Source of the DNA: a virus
IMG/VR virus record: IMGVR_UViG_3300025872_000366
Coordinates: 1-21,411 of that record
Length of the DNA: 21,411 bases
Strand: one strand, 5' to 3'
Positions 7,671 to 15,732 of this stretch are shown piece by piece (the stretch's first letter is position 1; each line of letters begins with the position of its first letter). The notes beneath the pieces were generated by a model. The model did no database searches, had not been told where the DNA came from, and saw only the letters and a program-made list of their open reading frames with translations. A program made the translations under genes and the position numbers.

Positions 7671-8194
7671 GATGTTACTGCTTTGTTCCGAAATGTGACC
7701 GACAGGTGAAAGATGCCGCCGATTTTTTGCTGAGTCACATCCGATGCGTATGACTCAAAGGTCGTTTTAGACTTAGCAGATCCGTAAGCTTGGCCGATGA
7801 TTGTGGTGGTCAATACTGGCGGTGTGGGAATCTTTTGAAAAGTCCCAGTGCTTAAAATGTAAACCGTTTTTGTTGTAGAGACCCAGGTCTCCGTTGCGGT
7901 CATCAATATTGTTTCAGCGGCCGAATTTGTCTCAAACCAAGTTTTTGGAACGCTGATGATTTCGCTCGAAATCGTTTCGGGAATCACAGAATCAATTTCG
8001 TAGAGCGAATATTCGCAGACAACAAGCCCGTCGGAATAGTCGATCACAATGCCTTCCGGCTCGCCGACGATTTGGTCGATTATGGACTCATCTCGCCCGA
8101 CGATTTGCTTGCGAACTTCGACAAGTCCACGGGGCAGATGGCGGCGACTTAGAGTCTTATCGACTAAAACAGTATTGCTGGCGCTGTAGATCAT
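7667..8194 (-). CDS. Hypothetical tail-tip-region protein
   Basis: 175 residues, starting MIYSASNTVLVDKTLSRRHL. Seen: beta-rich with many Thr/Ser residues (TILMTATETWVSTTKTVYIL and TPPVLTTTIIGQAYGSAKSK), and a charged central part (VRKQIVGRDESIIDQIVGE). No signal peptide, no membrane helix and no catalytic motif that I can identify. The start overlaps the stop of the Ig-repeat gene as ATGA (8191-8194), and its own stop overlaps the next start in the same way, so three tail genes form a tightly coupled set. In lambda-like phages this position holds tail-tip genes, but no similarity to M, L, K, I or J is evident. Confidence 0.6.
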   Translation of the reverse strand: MIYSASNTVLVDKTLSRRHLPRGLVEVRKQIVGRDESIIDQIVGEPEGIVIDYSDGLVVCEYSLYEIDSVIPETISSEIISVPKTWFETNSAAETILMTATETWVSTTKTVYILSTGTFQKIPTPPVLTTTIIGQAYGSAKSKTTFESYASDVTQQKIGGIFHLSVTFRNKAVTS

Positions 8195-10698
8195 TGCCCG
8201 TCACGTTCATCGCGGATGACTGAGTTGTTTAGGTTCACGGGAAGCGTGACGGATCGGCTCGATGCGTATTCGTCTGCCCAGCGAACCTCGAGGAGTGCGA
8301 TGATGCTCTCGGGATTGTCGGCGGCGAATTCCGCTTCGATGGCGTCGGTGTTCAGGTCAAGCGTGCTAGTCCCGTGAGGCACGAGCGCGAGATATGTAGT
8401 GTCTTCGAACCGCGCTTTGATGCCAACGGTGATCTCGGAGCTGGTCGGCAAATCCACAGCCTCCGTGCCCTCGATAAAAAACAACTCAAAAGGCATTTTG
8501 TCGCGGCGTTTTAAGTCCAGCGAGGCGATTGGGTATCGGGAGTTTGGCCGGTCCAGGAAGCGTTTTTTTTGCGGGTCGATGTATATTTTCATAATGTTCC
8601 AGTGTTTGATGACGATTTCGAGTGCCGTAGGAGTTGCAACCCCTGCCTCATTAGCGGCTTCCAGAGTGATTGTATAAACTCCCGGCACCGTCGGGGTGCC
8701 AGAGATGGTTCCAGCGTCGGTAATGGTTAAGCCTGCAGGCAGTGAGGAGGCGACCCATGTCGATGCCGGGGCGAGTTGGTCCACGACTGTCGCTTGGTAG
8801 CTGACCGGGTATCCTGTGCGGGCGGTGAAAGCTTGGCTTTCGCTAATTGTCGGCACGCCTCCTAGAGCGATGATATCGAGCGCCTCAGATACAGAGTTAC
8901 CTAAAGAGTCCGTGATTGTGTAGGTGACGGGGTAGGTCGCTGGCGTTGAGGCATTCCCCGAGATCGTGCCGGTCCCGGCGTCGATGGTCGCCCATTGGGG
9001 AAGCCCCTGAGCGGAATAAATGTAAGTCTCCGTCAGGTTTTTATTTAACACTTCCGGCTGCGCTTGAAATGGCGTGTCGAGGATCGTGTAGAATTTTTGG
9101 CCAGCGGGAAGAATTGGCTTTAATGCGGAGCGAAGTTCCAGAGTCGATTCGGTCGATCCCCCTGGACCTGTGCCGGTGAGTGTAATTTGCGCCACTGTGA
9201 CCTCGGTTGGTGAACCGGTGATCGTGCCAGTCAGCACGTCGAGGGTAGCCCACTCAGGCAGGTCGGTTGCTTGCCAAGAGTCAACTGGGCGGTTTCCTGC
9301 GTTGATGGTCTGCGGCGTAAAAACAAAATCCTCGCCAATATAGGCCGTGAAATATTGCGGCGATGGGATGTCTGGCGCTCCAGCAGTGATGGTTAGTTGA
9401 ATGTTTTCAAAATCACTGCCAACCGCAGATGAGGCGGTCACAAGGTAAGGCCTATTAACGATCGTCGTTGGCGTGCCAGACAGCACGCCGGAGTTTGAAA
9501 TGGTTAAACCGCCAGCGACATTTGATGACCATGACGATGCGGGACGATCTTGCTCGTCTTGGAGAAGAATTTGCGCTGTGAAAAACTCGCCGACTTTTCC
9601 GGCGAAAGCCTGCCCTGATACGATGATCGGTTTCCCCGCAGCGATTGAGATGGATACTGTTTCGGTTCTTGATCCCCCCGGCCCGGTCGCCGTGAGTGAT
9701 ATAGCGGAGGTCTCTGAATCTTGAGGAGTGCCTGAGATCGCGCCCGTTGAGGCATCAAGGGTCGCCCAACTCGGCAGGCCTGTCGCGCTCCAGCTTGTCA
9801 CGGGCCGATTTTTGGAATCCGAAATTGCAAAAGTTTTTGCAAAAGGAAGGCCAACCGTGCCGGTCGCGGACTGCCCAGCGATGATGATTGGAACTCCAGC
9901 GCTCACTTCAAAGCTAATTAACTGCGAGGCCGTGCCATAGACCATTGTGCCGCCGGGGCCAGTTATGTAAAAATAAACACCCCGGCGCCCAGCTTTTATT
10001 GTCGGCGTGCCAGAGATCACCCCGGTAGACCCATTTAATGACAACCCAGATGGCAGTGGGGATAACAATGGAGGAACCAACCAGCTATTTGCGGGACGGA
10101 ACTCCTCTTCTAAAAGGATCGGCCTAGCCGAAAATGGTTCGCCGACTTTGCATATAAAAACCTGATCTGGCTCTACCTCGGGATACCCGTATCCAATAGA
10201 TAGAGTCGCCGTTTTTGTGTCACTGCCGACTGCGCTAGTCACGGTTATGGTGACAGCATAGTCCTGCACACCTGTCGGCGTGCCAGTGATCACCCCTGTC
10301 GCGGGGTCGTAGGTCGCCCACTCGGGCAAGCCGTTAATTTCCCAAGAATCAACAGGCCGACCGGCGGCGTTTTCCAGAGCGAAAGTTTTGGAAAAATCAG
10401 TGCCGTATTTGTGAGATAAGATTTGGCCGGAGATTAAGAGGGGTGCGCCCGGATCGATTTCAAAATTCAACCAGGTTTCCTCTTGAAAGCCAGAACTGTA
10501 TGTTCTCCGGACACGGGCTGAAAAAGACCCATAGGCGCCAGAAATGCGGCCGGTTAAATTAAATCCGTTATTGTAGCCGATTTCTATGCCTTGCGGAAGA
10601 TAGCCATAAACTAAGTCATTGCTAACGGTTCCCGCGTTAAAATTCCCTTGGAAATAATCCCCAACGCGTGCGGTAAAGTTGTAAGTTGGCAAACTCAT
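8191..10698 (-). CDS. Large tail protein with seven Ig-type (He_PIG-like) repeats and a fibre module
   Basis: 835 residues. Seen: at least seven repeats of about 85-95 residues, each with the signature LP-x-WATxD-xxTGxISGTP(T) and a GPGGS or AVGSDT turn: GVITGTPT, GVISGTPT, GAISGTPQ, GVLSGTPT, GTITGSPT, GTISGNAS, GTISGTPT. A more divergent copy starts the protein (GYLPQGIEIGYNN). Repeats begin with a conserved hydrophobic step such as GQxFTAxxGxxF. These are putative Ig (He_PIG/cadherin-like) folds, known in surface adhesins and phage tails. Residues 703-835, from an internal ATG at 8592, match the N-terminus of the fibre at 5511-6374. Inference: an extended tail-tip or side fibre that binds cell-surface carbohydrate. 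It directly follows the tape measure gene, where lambda has its tail-tip genes. Confidence 0.75.
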   Translation of the reverse strand: MSLPTYNFTARVGDYFQGNFNAGTVSNDLVYGYLPQGIEIGYNNGFNLTGRISGAYGSFSARVRRTYSSGFQEETWLNFEIDPGAPLLISGQILSHKYGTDFSKTFALENAAGRPVDSWEINGLPEWATYDPATGVITGTPTGVQDYAVTITVTSAVGSDTKTATLSIGYGYPEVEPDQVFICKVGEPFSARPILLEEEFRPANSWLVPPLLSPLPSGLSLNGSTGVISGTPTIKAGRRGVYFYITGPGGTMVYGTASQLISFEVSAGVPIIIAGQSATGTVGLPFAKTFAISDSKNRPVTSWSATGLPSWATLDASTGAISGTPQDSETSAISLTATGPGGSRTETVSISIAAGKPIIVSGQAFAGKVGEFFTAQILLQDEQDRPASSWSSNVAGGLTISNSGVLSGTPTTIVNRPYLVTASSAVGSDFENIQLTITAGAPDIPSPQYFTAYIGEDFVFTPQTINAGNRPVDSWQATDLPEWATLDVLTGTITGSPTEVTVAQITLTGTGPGGSTESTLELRSALKPILPAGQKFYTILDTPFQAQPEVLNKNLTETYIYSAQGLPQWATIDAGTGTISGNASTPATYPVTYTITDSLGNSVSEALDIIALGGVPTISESQAFTARTGYPVSYQATVVDQLAPASTWVASSLPAGLTITDAGTISGTPTVPGVYTITLEAANEAGVATPTALEIVIKHWNIMKIYIDPQKKRFLDRPNSRYPIASLDLKRRDKMPFELFFIEGTEAVDLPTSSEITVGIKARFEDTTYLALVPHGTSTLDLNTDAIEAEFAADNPESIIALLEVRWADEYASSRSVTLPVNLNNSVIRDERDGQ

Positions 10699-10723: not shown

Positions 10724-12853
10724 TCAGGCCATTAGCGCGTTCGTCGGCAGTTTGGGTTCGATTTTTTCGATGAGTTTTTTAATATCCTCGACAAGCGACT
10801 CGAGGGCTGACTTGCCAATGGGTTTGCCATCGCCGCTGCGGGCTTGTTCGCGGGTCTGGCCGGTCTGGCCGGGTTTGTCCACGGAAGCGACTGCTGATTT
10901 TGTTTCTTCGGCTTTTTTGGCGAAACGGTCGCGGAAGGATTGAGTGCCTTCGGCCATGCGTTGGGCAAGTGGCTTGGCGGCTTCGGCGGCGGCGGTTTCT
11001 TTCTCTGCGGCTTGGCGGGTTTGGCGTTCTTCGCGGGCGGCGATGCGGTTGGCAGCACGCTCAGCGGCAGAGAAGTTGCCTTTGCCGATGGCATCCTGGG
11101 CGCGCTTGGTGTCGCGGCCGCCACGGTCCACGGCGTCTTTGGCGCGGGCTTCTTCGATGGATTTGAAGAGCTTGGCGGATTCGGAGAGTTCTTCTTTGGC
11201 CTTCTTGGCGGAGCCTGCGGCTTTGTCGAAGGATCCGGCGATAGCCTCGGCATCGGTGACCGCGCCGGAGGTGCTTTTGTTGGCAGCGTCTGCCGAGGTG
11301 GCGGATTTCTCGAAGTCCTCGCGGACCTTTTTTCCTACTTCCACCACTTCGCCGAATTTGTCCTTCGTGCGTGCGGCGGACTCTTCGGCACCGAAGAAAT
11401 CGCGGGCGCTCGGCTCGATCGAATCGACGAGCTTGCCGAAACCATCTTGTATAGTCGATACGCCTTCGACTAAGTTTTTTTTGTAATTGTCCGCCGTGGC
11501 TCCAAGTCCTGCGGACACTTTATCTAAAACACTACCGCCTGCACTTTCAAATGCTGATTGAAATTTCGATGCACTACCTTGAGTTACAAACTCTAAACCA
11601 GACTTTAATTTACCGGTGAAAAAACCGATAGGGTCTGACATTGCATTTGCGAAATCCTGTGCAAAACCTTTTACAAAATCAAAAAATCCTGAACTAAAAA
11701 AATCTAAAATACTTTTGATTGCTTTTGAAAAGAAGTCCTCGATTGATTTTGCTGAATTGATAATGGCGTCAATCATGCCTTTAGCAAAAGAGCTATAAAT
11801 ATAACCCATCGCAGAACTTAATGTCTTAATGGCTGTAAATGGGAGCTCTGAGGTAATATATTTCCCCAAAAAGTCAGCCGCCGTCATAAAACCATTAAGC
11901 AAGGCATTCCCCGTCATTCTGATGCCTGTCTCGAGCGCGCTGCCGATTGCTTCGATGGCGGGCATGGGTGCCTTGAATGCTCCGATGAGGAAATCCGCAA
12001 CGCTCATCACTTGATCCATGAGCTTCTGGCCCCAGCCAGCGGCATCCACGCCGGTCAGCGAGGTCGTGAAAGCATTCAGCGCGGGCAGGGCGTCCTCGAG
12101 GAAGCCCGCTGCGAATTCCATCGTCTTGTTTTTGATGGCGGCAAAATTGTCGCCGAGCGTGTCCATGGCGGCGGCGCTGCGATCCATCACGCCGGGGAGG
12201 CTGCCGAGTTGGCCTTTAGCCGCATCGATCTCGCCCGCGAAATTATTGAGAAGCGGCAAAAGCTCGCCGCCGGATTTTCCGAAGACCTCCATCGCGGCGC
12301 GGGCGCGCTGGGCGGGGTCGGAAATATCGGCGATCTGCTTGGCGAAAACTTGCATCTGCTCTGTCGGGGTCTTACCAGCGAGGTCGCTCATGGAGATGCC
12401 GAGGGCGGAGAGCGTTTCGGTTTGGCTTTCGCCCCCTGCGGCCGCCTCGGCCATGAATTTCTGAAGCTTGTTGATGCTCGTGCCGACTTTATCCGCGCCG
12501 ACGCCAGAGTTATCAAACGCACGCTGGAGCGTGAGGAGATTCCCGGCCGTTTCGCCGGTGCGGGAGGAGAGATCGCTGAGCTTCCCACCGAGATCGATGG
12601 CTTGACCGAAACCATCCACGACCGCACGAGCGGCGGCTGTGGCGGCCTCGACGGCCATCATGCCGACCTTCACCGCCGCTCCCGCGACACCGGCGGCGAG
12701 GCCGATCTTGCCGAAGGACATGTCGAAGCCTTTGGAGGCCTCATCGGCTTTTGATCCCAGCTTGCTGATCGATTGCTGGATGTTTCGGATGCCTTGCTCG
12801 ATGCCGTCTGTCTCGGCTCCGATTTTGACTGTGATTGCGTTTCCTTCGGCCAT
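10724..12853 (-). CDS. Tail tape measure protein
   Basis: 709 residues. Known role: fills the tail tube during assembly, sets tail length and can take part in DNA entry. Seen: an N-terminal helical part (IGAETDGIEQGIRNIQQSIS), an Ala/Gly-rich hydrophobic helix (IGLAAGVAGAAVKVGMMAVE), the segment LSDLSSRTGETAGNLLTLQR and LGISMSDLAGKTPTEQMQVF common to phage tape measures, a hydrophobic, Phe-rich middle (residues 330-450), and a C-terminal Lys/Ala/Glu coiled coil (AAEAAKPLAQRMAEG). By the lambda ratio, 709 residues predict a tail of roughly 105-112 nm. Bases 11450-11890 are markedly AT-rich. It is preceded by the G/G-T chaperones and one unknown, as expected, and starts two bases after that unknown gene's stop codon. 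Confidence 0.9.
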   Translation of the reverse strand: MAEGNAITVKIGAETDGIEQGIRNIQQSISKLGSKADEASKGFDMSFGKIGLAAGVAGAAVKVGMMAVEAATAAARAVVDGFGQAIDLGGKLSDLSSRTGETAGNLLTLQRAFDNSGVGADKVGTSINKLQKFMAEAAAGGESQTETLSALGISMSDLAGKTPTEQMQVFAKQIADISDPAQRARAAMEVFGKSGGELLPLLNNFAGEIDAAKGQLGSLPGVMDRSAAAMDTLGDNFAAIKNKTMEFAAGFLEDALPALNAFTTSLTGVDAAGWGQKLMDQVMSVADFLIGAFKAPMPAIEAIGSALETGIRMTGNALLNGFMTAADFLGKYITSELPFTAIKTLSSAMGYIYSSFAKGMIDAIINSAKSIEDFFSKAIKSILDFFSSGFFDFVKGFAQDFANAMSDPIGFFTGKLKSGLEFVTQGSASKFQSAFESAGGSVLDKVSAGLGATADNYKKNLVEGVSTIQDGFGKLVDSIEPSARDFFGAEESAARTKDKFGEVVEVGKKVREDFEKSATSADAANKSTSGAVTDAEAIAGSFDKAAGSAKKAKEELSESAKLFKSIEEARAKDAVDRGGRDTKRAQDAIGKGNFSAAERAANRIAAREERQTRQAAEKETAAAEAAKPLAQRMAEGTQSFRDRFAKKAEETKSAVASVDKPGQTGQTREQARSGDGKPIGKSALESLVEDIKKLIEKIEPKLPTNALMA

Positions 12854-12855
12854 GG

Positions 12856-13533
12856 TTATGCGGTGGCCTTGAGGCCTGGGTATTTCGCGGCGATGTCGCT
12901 GGTTTTTTTGAAGACTCCGAGGCGGAGGTTTTTCTTAAAGAAGTTCGTGCGGCCTCGCATGGCGGCGCGGATGGCATCGCGCACGCTGGGTGAGTAGGTT
13001 CGGGAGTTGGTGATCTGGATAAAAAACGAGGATCCGTCCTGCTTCTCGGAGGCCTCGGCGTCTTCCGGGTAGTCGCCTTTTTTTGTTTTGGCATTGGCGA
13101 CATAGGAAGGAACTGAAATCGTGATGCCTAATTTCTCGGCGACCTGCATCCAGCTTTTTTTCGCGAGGCCGCGAGCCGCTTTGGTTATTGCGATCTCGTC
13201 TTTGATTTGCTTCTGAATCGCCGCCCACACCGCGCCTGGAAGTTTCCAGCCTTTCGGTGCTGGGGGTGTCCACCAAGAAGGGCTGCGCCAAGCGCGGCTA
13301 GTATTTGTGAGATATGTTTTGCCGTTTACGGTTCGGACGCGGGTTTCTTTTACACTTTGCTCGATGAGCTTAACCTGCGCTGCTTTGGTTTTTTTCACCG
13401 CTGCCTCGAGGATTGATTGGGTCTCGGCACGGATGATGTCTTGAAATGACGCGCCGGTGATCTTGGCCATCTCCCGCATGGCGCGGGTGAAATCGCTGGC
13501 GACCACATTGAGACTGGCGGAGGCTTTAGACAT
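12856..13533 (-). CDS. Hypothetical protein between chaperone and tape measure
   Basis: 225 residues. Seen: a helical N-terminus (SDFTRAMREMAKITGASFQD, IIRAETQSILEAAVKKTKAA), a central Trp/Pro-rich part (AWRSPSWWTPPAPKGWKLPG), then a second mostly helical section and a basic C-terminal end (MRGRTNFFKKNLRLGVFKKT). Helical N-termini of this type occur in minor tail protein Z or HK97 gp10-like proteins, but I cannot assign it. In lambda, G-T is followed directly by the tape measure, so this gene is an extra piece. Its ATG lies inside the final codons of the -1 frame T extension: eight bases overlap. Inference: a minor tail or tail-completion protein. Confidence 0.6.
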   Translation of the reverse strand: MSKASASLNVVASDFTRAMREMAKITGASFQDIIRAETQSILEAAVKKTKAAQVKLIEQSVKETRVRTVNGKTYLTNTSRAWRSPSWWTPPAPKGWKLPGAVWAAIQKQIKDEIAITKAARGLAKKSWMQVAEKLGITISVPSYVANAKTKKGDYPEDAEASEKQDGSSFFIQITNSRTYSPSVRDAIRAAMRGRTNFFKKNLRLGVFKKTSDIAAKYPGLKATA

Positions 13534-14157
13534 CGAGTTTTTGAAAGGCGCTTTCTATTGCCGCGAGCGAGTCAAAATCCGCGTTCGGATTGCGGCGAAG
13601 ATAAAGGCGAGGAACGCCGTGGCTGAATGAATCGGCGTCCAGGATTTGGAGCCCGGCAGCAAAGGGGACTTCCCACATGCAGGCGTGAAACCCCCAACCG
13701 GTGATGCTTGCGAGGCGGTAGACATAGGATGCAAGCCAGTTGGGGGATGCTACTCCCCCGAGGTTGGGGCTCCGGTGGAGGGGTGCTTGGCTTTGGTCTC
13801 GGCGGCGTTCACGCGATCCCAGGCGGCGGAGACGAGCTTCGAGAGTTCGTTTTGGTCATCGAGGTCGGCGATGTTCTCGAGCTGCCAGCGGCGGACGGCT
13901 TTGTTAAATTCCTCGGGGTCGCTGTCCACGGCGAGGACATCCTCGAGTGGTGCGGAGTGGACAAAGGCAAAGGCGGCGACGAACCAGAACTCATCGCGCT
14001 TTTCGAGCAGATTCGAGCGGATGATGCTGATCGTGCCGGGAACGCACGGGCGGAGCTTGAATTTGCCGACTCGCTTCGTGCCGTCGCGCATGGCGGCTTC
14101 GCGCAGGGCTTCGTCGTCGGTGAGGAGGTCGGTGTCGGGTTGGGTTTGTTTTTTCAT
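13526..14157 (-). CDS. Tail assembly chaperone G-T fusion made by -1 frameshift
   Basis: Seen: the gene at 13750-14157 ends TCG GGG GAG TAG. Shifted back one base at GGGGGAG (13753-13759), the frame runs open for about 75 codons: GVASPNWLASYVYRLASITG, then WGFHACMWEVPFAAGLQILD, then a C-terminal end closing with FQKLDV and TAA at 13526-13528. The open -1 frame has no useful start of its own; its only ATG is internal. Predicted fusion: 210 residues. Known: in lambda and most long-tailed phages the two proteins before the tape measure are made from G by a -1 slip (G and G-T), both being chaperones for tape measure assembly. Position and stem-loop spacing fit. Inference, not proven by translation data. 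Confidence 0.72.
13691..13759 (-). promoter_or_regulatory. Programmed -1 frameshift signal: slippery G-run plus stem-loop
   Basis: Seen: slippery heptamer G GGG GAG at 13753-13759, in frame and ending right before TAG. After a 6-base spacer, CCCCCAACTGG (13736-13746) pairs with CCGGTTGGGGG (13691-13701) as 11 base pairs including one G-T pair. An inner stem CTTGC (13731-13735) with GCAAG (13707-13711) extends it. Known: slippery site, 5-8 base spacer and strong stem is the standard layout. The A-site pairing after the slip (GAG to GGA) is imperfect, so slippage may occur with GGG in the P site. A smaller hairpin, GGGGGA with TCCCCC (13742-13759), competes. Confidence 0.68.
13750..14157 (-). 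CDS. Tail assembly chaperone, gpG-like
   Basis: 135 residues. Seen: starts MKKQTQPDTDLLTDDEALRE, with an acidic, helical content in the second half (DSDPEEFNKAVRRWQLENIA, DLDDQNELSKLVSAAWDRVN), a Pro/Gly/Ser-rich C-terminus (KHPSTGAPTSGE) and no membrane segment. Known: lambda gpG is a similar-sized (140 residue) chaperone that coats the tape measure. The key support is its location two genes before the tape measure, and the frameshift signal at its last codons, which extends a fraction of the product into the T frame. Start ATG at 14155-14157, leader A/T-rich without Shine-Dalgarno. Confidence 0.7.
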   Translation of the reverse strand: MKKQTQPDTDLLTDDEALREAAMRDGTKRVGKFKLRPCVPGTISIIRSNLLEKRDEFWFVAAFAFVHSAPLEDVLAVDSDPEEFNKAVRRWQLENIADLDDQNELSKLVSAAWDRVNAAETKAKHPSTGAPTSGE

Positions 14158-14629: not shown

Positions 14630-14992
14630 CTAGGCGAGGACGGCGTCGTATTGCGTCATTGAAATATCCACCGAGGCGAAGCCTTCGGAGGTGAGATTTT
14701 GGGTCACGCTGTCCACGAGGATTGTGCCGGAGAGAGCGCCGGCGCCGGTATTCACGAGCGAGGTTATCTTGTCGCCGACATTAGGGATAGTGGTGCCGAT
14801 GCCGTTGATCGAAATTGTGGCTTTTTTTCCGTAGCGGTGGGTGTAGACAAGTGTGCCATCGGTGTCGAAAACCTCGGCTTTGTCGGAGGTGACATCGTAG
14901 CTGAATGACTGGATGAGGATGCCGAGGCCGGATTCATCTTGGATTCCAAAGTCGGCAGTGATTCCGCTGGCGGCGTAAAATTGTGCGGGCAT
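14630..14992 (-). CDS. Tail tube protein-like, second of two paralogues
   Basis: 120 residues. Seen: MPAQFYAASGITADFGIQDE at the start, then ILIQSFSYDVTSDKAEVFDT, YGKKATISINGIGTTIPNVG, ALSGTILVDSVTQNLTSEGF and VDISMTQYDAVLA. The pattern GILIQSFS, DTDG, KKATISINGIG, SGTILVDSVT and GFASVDISMTQYD mirrors the upstream gene (14999-15310), so the two are paralogues. The beta-strand-rich profile with a final Ser/Thr-aromatic strand is typical of tail tube (gpV-like) proteins of long-tailed phages. Known role: hexameric rings stacked into the tube. Position between the tail terminator and the chaperones supports this. It is followed by a strong terminator. It may be the main tube protein, and its partner a variant or completion protein (inference). 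Confidence 0.68.
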   Translation of the reverse strand: MPAQFYAASGITADFGIQDESGLGILIQSFSYDVTSDKAEVFDTDGTLVYTHRYGKKATISINGIGTTIPNVGDKITSLVNTGAGALSGTILVDSVTQNLTSEGFASVDISMTQYDAVLA

Positions 14993-14998
14993 GGCTTT

Positions 14999-15310
14999 TT
15001 AGTCTTGGGTTGCGGTGATTTGGAATTCCGCGAATCCGTCGATGGATCGGGAAGTGGAGATTTGGTCGATCGTGTAGGATCCAGAGACGCCGGGCATGCT
15101 GCCGAGCGCTCCACCGACTGCGAGAGAGCCTGCATCGCCGACGCCGGAGATGGAGACTTCGCGCTTAAATTTGTTGTAGCCCACGGCGGCGTATTCGCCG
15201 TCCGCGCCACGGAGTTCTTGTTTTGCAGAGGTGTCGGTGATGGTGACCGAATTAACGATCATCGATCCCGCATTCCCGCCGGTGATTCCAAAGGTGTAGG
15301 ATGCTGGCAT
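14999..15310 (-). CDS. Tail tube protein-like, first of two paralogues
   Basis: 103 residues. Seen: MPASYTFGITGGNAGSMIVN, then SVTITDTSAKQELRGADGEY, YNKFKREVSISGVGDAGSLA, SGSYTIDQISTSRSIDGFAE and FQITATQD. It shares length class, order of motifs and many positions with the gene at 14630-14992: an N-terminal MPA, the ADG/TDG turn, KREVSISGVG with KKATISINGIG, GSYTIDQIS with GTILVDSVT, and a final aromatic/Ile strand. The true start is the ATG at 15308-15310; a longer open frame upstream (to 15604) is Arg/His-rich shadow of the neighbouring gene and is rejected. The TTTGACAC motif lies 27 bases upstream; the leader ends in CCACCACCT. Inferred role: tail tube subunit or tube-related variant. Confidence 0.62.
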   Translation of the reverse strand: MPASYTFGITGGNAGSMIVNSVTITDTSAKQELRGADGEYAAVGYNKFKREVSISGVGDAGSLAVGGALGSMPGVSGSYTIDQISTSRSIDGFAEFQITATQD

Positions 15311-15339
15311 AGGTGGTGGATTTCGATGGAGGCGGGGTG

Positions 15340-15732
15340 TCAAATTTCCCCGAGGCCGAGGACCAGCGTGGCGGTGCATACCCAGCGCGATTCCGATTGG
15401 GATTCGGTGAGGCCGGTCAAAACCGCCCCGGCAAAGGCGAGGCTTGAAAAATGCGGAGCCAGGGATGGGAGATTGCGGAGCGCGGTGCGCAGCGCGCTGG
15501 TGAGCTGGTGATGCTGCTCGACCTCTAGGTGCGACGGAGTAGCGAGGACGATGGATGCTGTGGCGCGGGATAGCGCGCCGCCGATGATCTCGACATTCTC
15601 GCAAGCGGCAAAGAGCACCGGCTGGTCCTGCGGGATGGTTTCGGCGGATTGACCGGTGTGGACGGGGATTCCGTCAAAGGCGGGCTGGGCGCGGAGCCAC
15701 GCGGCGAGGGAGGTTTCGACGGGGATGTTCAC
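15340..15732 (-). CDS. Tail terminator-like protein (gpU position)
   Basis: 130 residues, start GTG at 15730-15732 overlapping the upstream stop (GTGA). Seen: MNIPVETSLAAWLRAQPAFD and IPVHTGQSAETIPQDQPVLF, then VEIIGGALSRATASIVLATP, helix HHQLTSALRTALRNLPSLAP and a terminal strand (RWVCTATLVLGLGEI). The composition (N-terminal helix, central strands, long helix, final strand with aromatic and Thr residues) fits small head-tail and tail terminator proteins such as gpU. Known role: caps the tail tube and joins tail to head. It is placed between the head-joining gene and the tube genes exactly as in lambda. The homology is not provable by eye. The stop TGA is part of a TTTGACAC junction motif. 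Confidence 0.6.
   Translation of the reverse strand: MNIPVETSLAAWLRAQPAFDGIPVHTGQSAETIPQDQPVLFAACENVEIIGGALSRATASIVLATPSHLEVEQHHQLTSALRTALRNLPSLAPHFSSLAFAGAVLTGLTESQSESRWVCTATLVLGLGEI

Follow-up and report, generated by a model that had tools for sequence, protein, structure and literature searches.

The 21,411-nt stretch of DNA analysed here (hereinafter the window) comes from the record of an uncultured virus and very probably encodes a G/GT-type pair of tail assembly chaperones expressed by −1 programmed ribosomal frameshifting (probability about 0.92; the slippage itself we infer). Sequence comparison indicates a real and ordinary programmed frameshift of the phage lambda G/GT type, a well-known kind, in a family of divergent sequence. 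What is new here is the divergent family, linked to Verrucomicrobiota, together with a natural pair of slip-site variants; the kind of frameshift was known already.

Layout of the G/T locus

The structural genes of the record are on the minus strand. Those that place the locus are:

19884-18139, minus strand: portal protein, lambda family (family search)
18244-17033, minus strand: ClpP-type protease (family search)
13753..14157, minus strand: G, 0-frame product of 135 aa, presumed short form of a tail assembly chaperone (ORF; homologues; AlphaFold model)
13526..13753, minus strand: T, −1 frame extension of 75 codons plus stop (sequence; conservation in 79 relatives; pN/pS 0.39)
12856..13533, minus strand: intervening tail-region gene, 225 aa, no assigned function (ORF; homologues in relatives)
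10724..12853, minus strand: 709-aa tape measure protein (matches to PHROGs tape-measure families; E 1.1e-18 for the best one so named)

The elements at the end of G that would direct the frameshift are:

13770..13773, minus strand: GGAG, which may act as a Shine-Dalgarno-like stimulator, 10 nt before the heptamer (duplex energy in relatives)
13753..13759, minus strand: slip heptamer G GGG GAG; GGGAAAG, GGGAAAC or AAAAAAC there in other lineages (sequence comparison)
13750..13752, minus strand: TAG stop codon of G, abutting the heptamer (sequence; stop adjacent in all 79 distinct relatives)
13747..13752, minus strand: spacer TAGCAT, 6 nt, from heptamer to stem (spacing constant in ungapped alignment)
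13691..13746, minus strand: stem-loop with an 11-bp stem (arms 13746-13736 and 13701-13691) and a 34-nt loop (RNAalifold consensus)

A preliminary description of the window had put a slip heptamer right before TAG, a −1 frame of about 75 codons without a useful start that ends at the start of the next gene, and the G/G-T pair before the tape measure, and this layout is confirmed. Specifically, G has 135 codons and closes with GGG GAG TAG, the heptamer being at 13759-13753 and the stop at 13752-13750. The T frame, 75 codons with no start codon before codon 26, is open from 13753 to 13529 and stops at 13528-13526, 8 nt inside the 225-aa gene, whose ATG is at 13533. This gene alone sits between the G/T pair and the tape measure gene, and G is two genes upstream of the latter (10724-12853).

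The slip site in relatives

Viral contigs were scanned with G, with T and with the gene that follows, and viral contigs and genomes were scanned with T profiles, which gave 79 distinct sequences spanning the slip site. In all 79, the heptamer is followed at once by the 0-frame stop. The heptamer is GGGAAAC in 31 sequences, GGGAAAG in 29, AAAAAAC in two and GGGGGAG in 17, the last being the window's clade. Heptamer and stop combine as GGGAAAC-TAA (30), GGGAAAG-TAG (29), GGGGGAG-TAG (17), AAAAAAC-TAG (2) and GGGAAAC-TGA (1). The site is therefore a canonical XXXYYYZ in 62 of the 79 relatives and GGGGGAG in the other 17. The heptamer had been called unusual, which is true of the window's clade, in which GGGGGAG breaks the XXXYYYZ rule, but not of the sister lineages, which conform with GGGAAAG.

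As a yardstick, we took the ORFs of at least 120 codons in the relatives' loci, which have 1,682 distinct ends. XXXYYYZ stands directly before a stop codon 57 times among these ends, and none of the 1,682 carries XXXYYYZ plus stop outside the heptamer-stop combinations of this site type.

Since the frame is disrupted within one conserved region, G and T could also be read as a single gene broken by a sequencing error or as a pseudogene. The same break, with differing stops, recurs in 79 distinct sequences, which come from viral contigs and from two Verrucomicrobia MAGs, and the T frame is under purifying selection; the relatives already refute this reading, and its probability is negligible.

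Selection on the T frame

The T frame is open in 76 of the 76 sequences scored. Its pN/pS is 0.39, compared with 1.46 and 1.44 for the two alternative frames, and within the window clade it is 0.21, compared with 1.7 and 2.4. The median pairwise dN/dS in the T frame is about 0.22. Purifying selection on the −1 frame, which the preliminary description had put forward as its test, is thus found (0.39 versus about 1.4-1.5 elsewhere). Conservation begins at the first codon past the slip (VASPNWLASYVY...), and codons 1-22 of T are among the best conserved. Four relatives (L029, L032, L034 and L049) have longer T ends, with variable KTHKTHK-type repeats and a GGEI or REI terminus.

T might instead be a separate protein, whose translation is coupled to that of G or re-initiates close to the G stop, with no fusion. 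The G stop and T do overlap, and phages commonly re-initiate translation where genes overlap. However, the window T has no ATG, GTG or TTG before codon 26 (the M of MWEVP), no start codon is conserved among the relatives within the first 25 codons, and Met26 is unconserved whereas the codons ahead of it are kept. Re-initiation would also leave the kept slip heptamer unexplained. Because conservation starts at codon 1 without a conserved start codon, a separately started T is argued against strongly, and we consider it very unlikely.

The downstream stem

In the window sequence alone, the stem is within the range of chance (fold z = −1.07), with an equally good fold in 30 of 200 shuffled sequences. 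An RNAalifold consensus of 62 sequences gives precisely the 11-bp stem, with 97.5% of its alignment cells paired. Changes on both sides occur at two pairs of this stem, in 22 and 18 sequences. The outer pair changes from C-G to G-C, whereby TCC..GGG becomes AGC..GGC and the encoded Ser and Gly are unchanged; another pair changes from A-U to G-C. When the partners are slid by 1-3 columns, pairing of the whole structure drops from 90% to 29-56%. Native stems are also more stable than synonymous-codon draws, the mean z for each of the three main slip groups lying between −1.6 and −2.0. The 11-bp stem and 6-nt spacer drawn in the preliminary description are thus supported. The 5-bp inner stem that it had added is rejected as a conserved element, with 74.8% of its cells paired and one pair mostly broken.

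The stem and the heptamer both bear on the idea that RNA polymerase slips on the G run and a proportion of the transcripts gain one base, in which case a fusion would arise from altered mRNA. The window clade has the GGGGG run for this, but most relatives have GGGAAAG or GGGAAAC there, and in many of them no run exceeds three bases. A stem that is conserved and covaries 6 nt downstream is, in turn, the kind of element that ribosomal shifting employs. We regard polymerase slippage as extremely unlikely.

In the relatives, the duplex energy with a generic anti-Shine-Dalgarno sequence dips 6-12 nt upstream of the heptamer, which is no more than suggestive of a Shine-Dalgarno-like purine stretch that may act as a stimulator.

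Origin of GGGGGAG

The slip heptamer of phage lambda is GGGAAAG, which also occurs in the sister lineages of the window clade. In a tree of G proteins made without the slip codons, the GGGGGAG sequences form one clade (support 100/99), and the GGGAAAG lineages adjoin it, the two together having support of 97/97. Because GGGGGAG is monophyletic and its nearest neighbours are GGGAAAG lineages, the likeliest history is that GGGGGAG replaced GGGAAAG once and is thus derived from the textbook site.

The A-site re-pairing of GAG on GGA had been called atypical. The site is indeed outside XXXYYYZ, but the re-pairing is less odd than it appeared, as tRNA-Glu(UUC) shifting from GAG to GGA retains G-C, G.U and A-U pairs and GGGGGAA offers a precedent. 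Specifically, the PRFect authors state that the 'fivetwo' motifs in SEA-PHAGES data, about a thousand sites in tail-chaperone genes, are all GGGGGAA, and they proposed G.U re-pairing on GGA for them (PMC10885494); a GGGGGAA site with an internal Shine-Dalgarno sequence is predicted in corynephage phi16 (PMC5506516). GGGGGAG differs from it in the wobble base only. No report of GGGGGAG as a slip site was found in the literature searched; among the results listed, the single phage paper with this string has it in a ribosome-binding site.

The MAG that carries relative L111 encodes tRNA-Glu with UUC and CUC anticodons and tRNA-Gly with CCC, UCC and GCC anticodons. tRNA-Glu(CUC) would give a C.A mismatch on GGA. 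With this set of Glu and Gly anticodons, tRNA content does not single out the slipping tRNA.

A model for G and GT synthesis

We infer slippage, its efficiency, the identity of the slipping tRNA and chaperone function, and propose the following course. Most ribosomes would read G and terminate at TAG, yielding gpG. A minority would be delayed at the heptamer, owing to the 11-bp stem downstream and possibly also to the adjacent stop, and would slip back by one base, the GGG tRNA re-pairing with GGG and tRNA-Glu moving from GAG to GGA with a G.U pair in the central position. Shifted ribosomes would continue with GTA GCA and so on, yielding gpGT, a fusion of 210 residues. If the analogy with lambda holds, gpG would coat the tape measure protein and the T part of gpGT would recruit the tail tube protein.

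In a stop-assisted variant of this model, TAG is already in the A site, termination is slow, and a lone P-site tRNA-Glu slips from GAG to GGA. The directly adjacent stop in 79 of 79 relatives favours the variant, as does the A-site re-pairing, which is weaker for GGGGGAG than for GGGAAAG. However, the preceding GGGG, a requirement for tandem slippage, does not vary within the window clade either, and the adjacent stop may be a mere economical end for G. The invariant stop fits both tandem and stop-assisted slippage, and we consider the variant possible but unlikely. Somewhat more doubtful is a version in which GGGGGAG, as a derived but functional site, relies chiefly on single P-site slippage, assisted by the stop next to it, with a G:GT ratio unlike that of the sister phages.

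The G and T proteins

The preliminary description had named a G-T chaperone. The frameshift anatomy it relied on is present and, apart from the inner stem, conserved in the relatives; the name 'chaperone' is drawn from position and layout. The traits of the G/GT class that are present are the position near the tape measure gene, a heptamer with an open −1 frame, a coding T without a start codon of its own, and a downstream RNA structure, which is a frequent but not universal trait of the class. Searches of G and T against Pfam, PHROGs and PDB sequences gave no significant family match, and Foldseek searches with the AlphaFold models detected no significant similarity for G in PDB or BFVD or for T in BFVD. 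Similarly, tblastn of the window T against named phages gave no match, and tblastn of two divergent T proteins gave nothing credible. Such chaperone ORFs of different phages show low sequence similarity (PMC5009743).

The AlphaFold model of G (mean pLDDT 73.7) is mostly helical and includes a single beta hairpin, and that of T is helical (mean pLDDT 80.6). Homologues of G in 54 loci are 129-140 aa long. Compared with the window, relatives L094-L109 are alike in the N-terminus of G and in the whole of T and are strongly diverged in the middle of G, with an overall G identity of 28-34%, which hints at mosaic exchange.

Comparison with known systems

As in the gpG/gpGT system of phage lambda, a −1 shift near the end of G would give a short and a long product, encoded upstream of the tape measure gene (PMC5009743). 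Unlike in lambda, the stop abuts the heptamer, one extra gene precedes the tape measure gene, and the heptamer of the clade is GGGGGAG; in addition, G and T have no detectable sequence match to known families.

The layout of heptamer, stop and one gene before the tape measure gene is that of gp18/gp19 of Burkholderia phage KL1 (PMC3483164; JF939047), in which GGGAAAC directly precedes the 0-frame stop TGA, a downstream stem is predicted, and one intervening gene precedes that for the tape measure. The T part is 122 aa in KL1 compared with 75 here, and an hhalign profile comparison of G/T with KL1 gp18/19 detected no homology.

The window's site shares with the GGGGGAA 'fivetwo' sites (SEA-PHAGES, PMC10885494; phi16, PMC5506516) five G followed by the end of a Glu codon, and the proposed G.U re-pairing on GGA. 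It differs from them in having G rather than A as the wobble base, and the phages and hosts also differ. A pseudoknot is predicted in phi16, compared with a stem-loop in the window.

The locus extends the tail-chaperone frameshift to a Verrucomicrobiota-linked phage family whose G and T escape sequence recognition. It also offers a natural one-step comparison, namely closely related phages with GGGAAAG or GGGGGAG, the same stop, nearly the same stem and a single switch between them. Because nature supplies this pair with a single switch, the tolerance of the heptamer rule is directly testable.

Host link and neighbouring genes

A T-profile scan of genomes matched two Verrucomicrobia MAGs, with 84% and 52% identity to T. 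Because of these two matches, the sequences point to Verrucomicrobiota as the phylum of the relatives' hosts; the link concerns the relatives and not the window virus's own host.

Upstream of G, two small proteins are encoded side by side at 14630-14992 and about 14999-15340 (both minus strand) and look paralogous by eye. They may be tail-tube-like, with weak PHROGs support (phrog_2005, E 0.007; a weak minor tail match for the protein at 14630-14992). At 8191-10698 (minus strand), an 835-aa protein contains seven He_PIG Ig-like repeats and is probably a tail or fibre protein.
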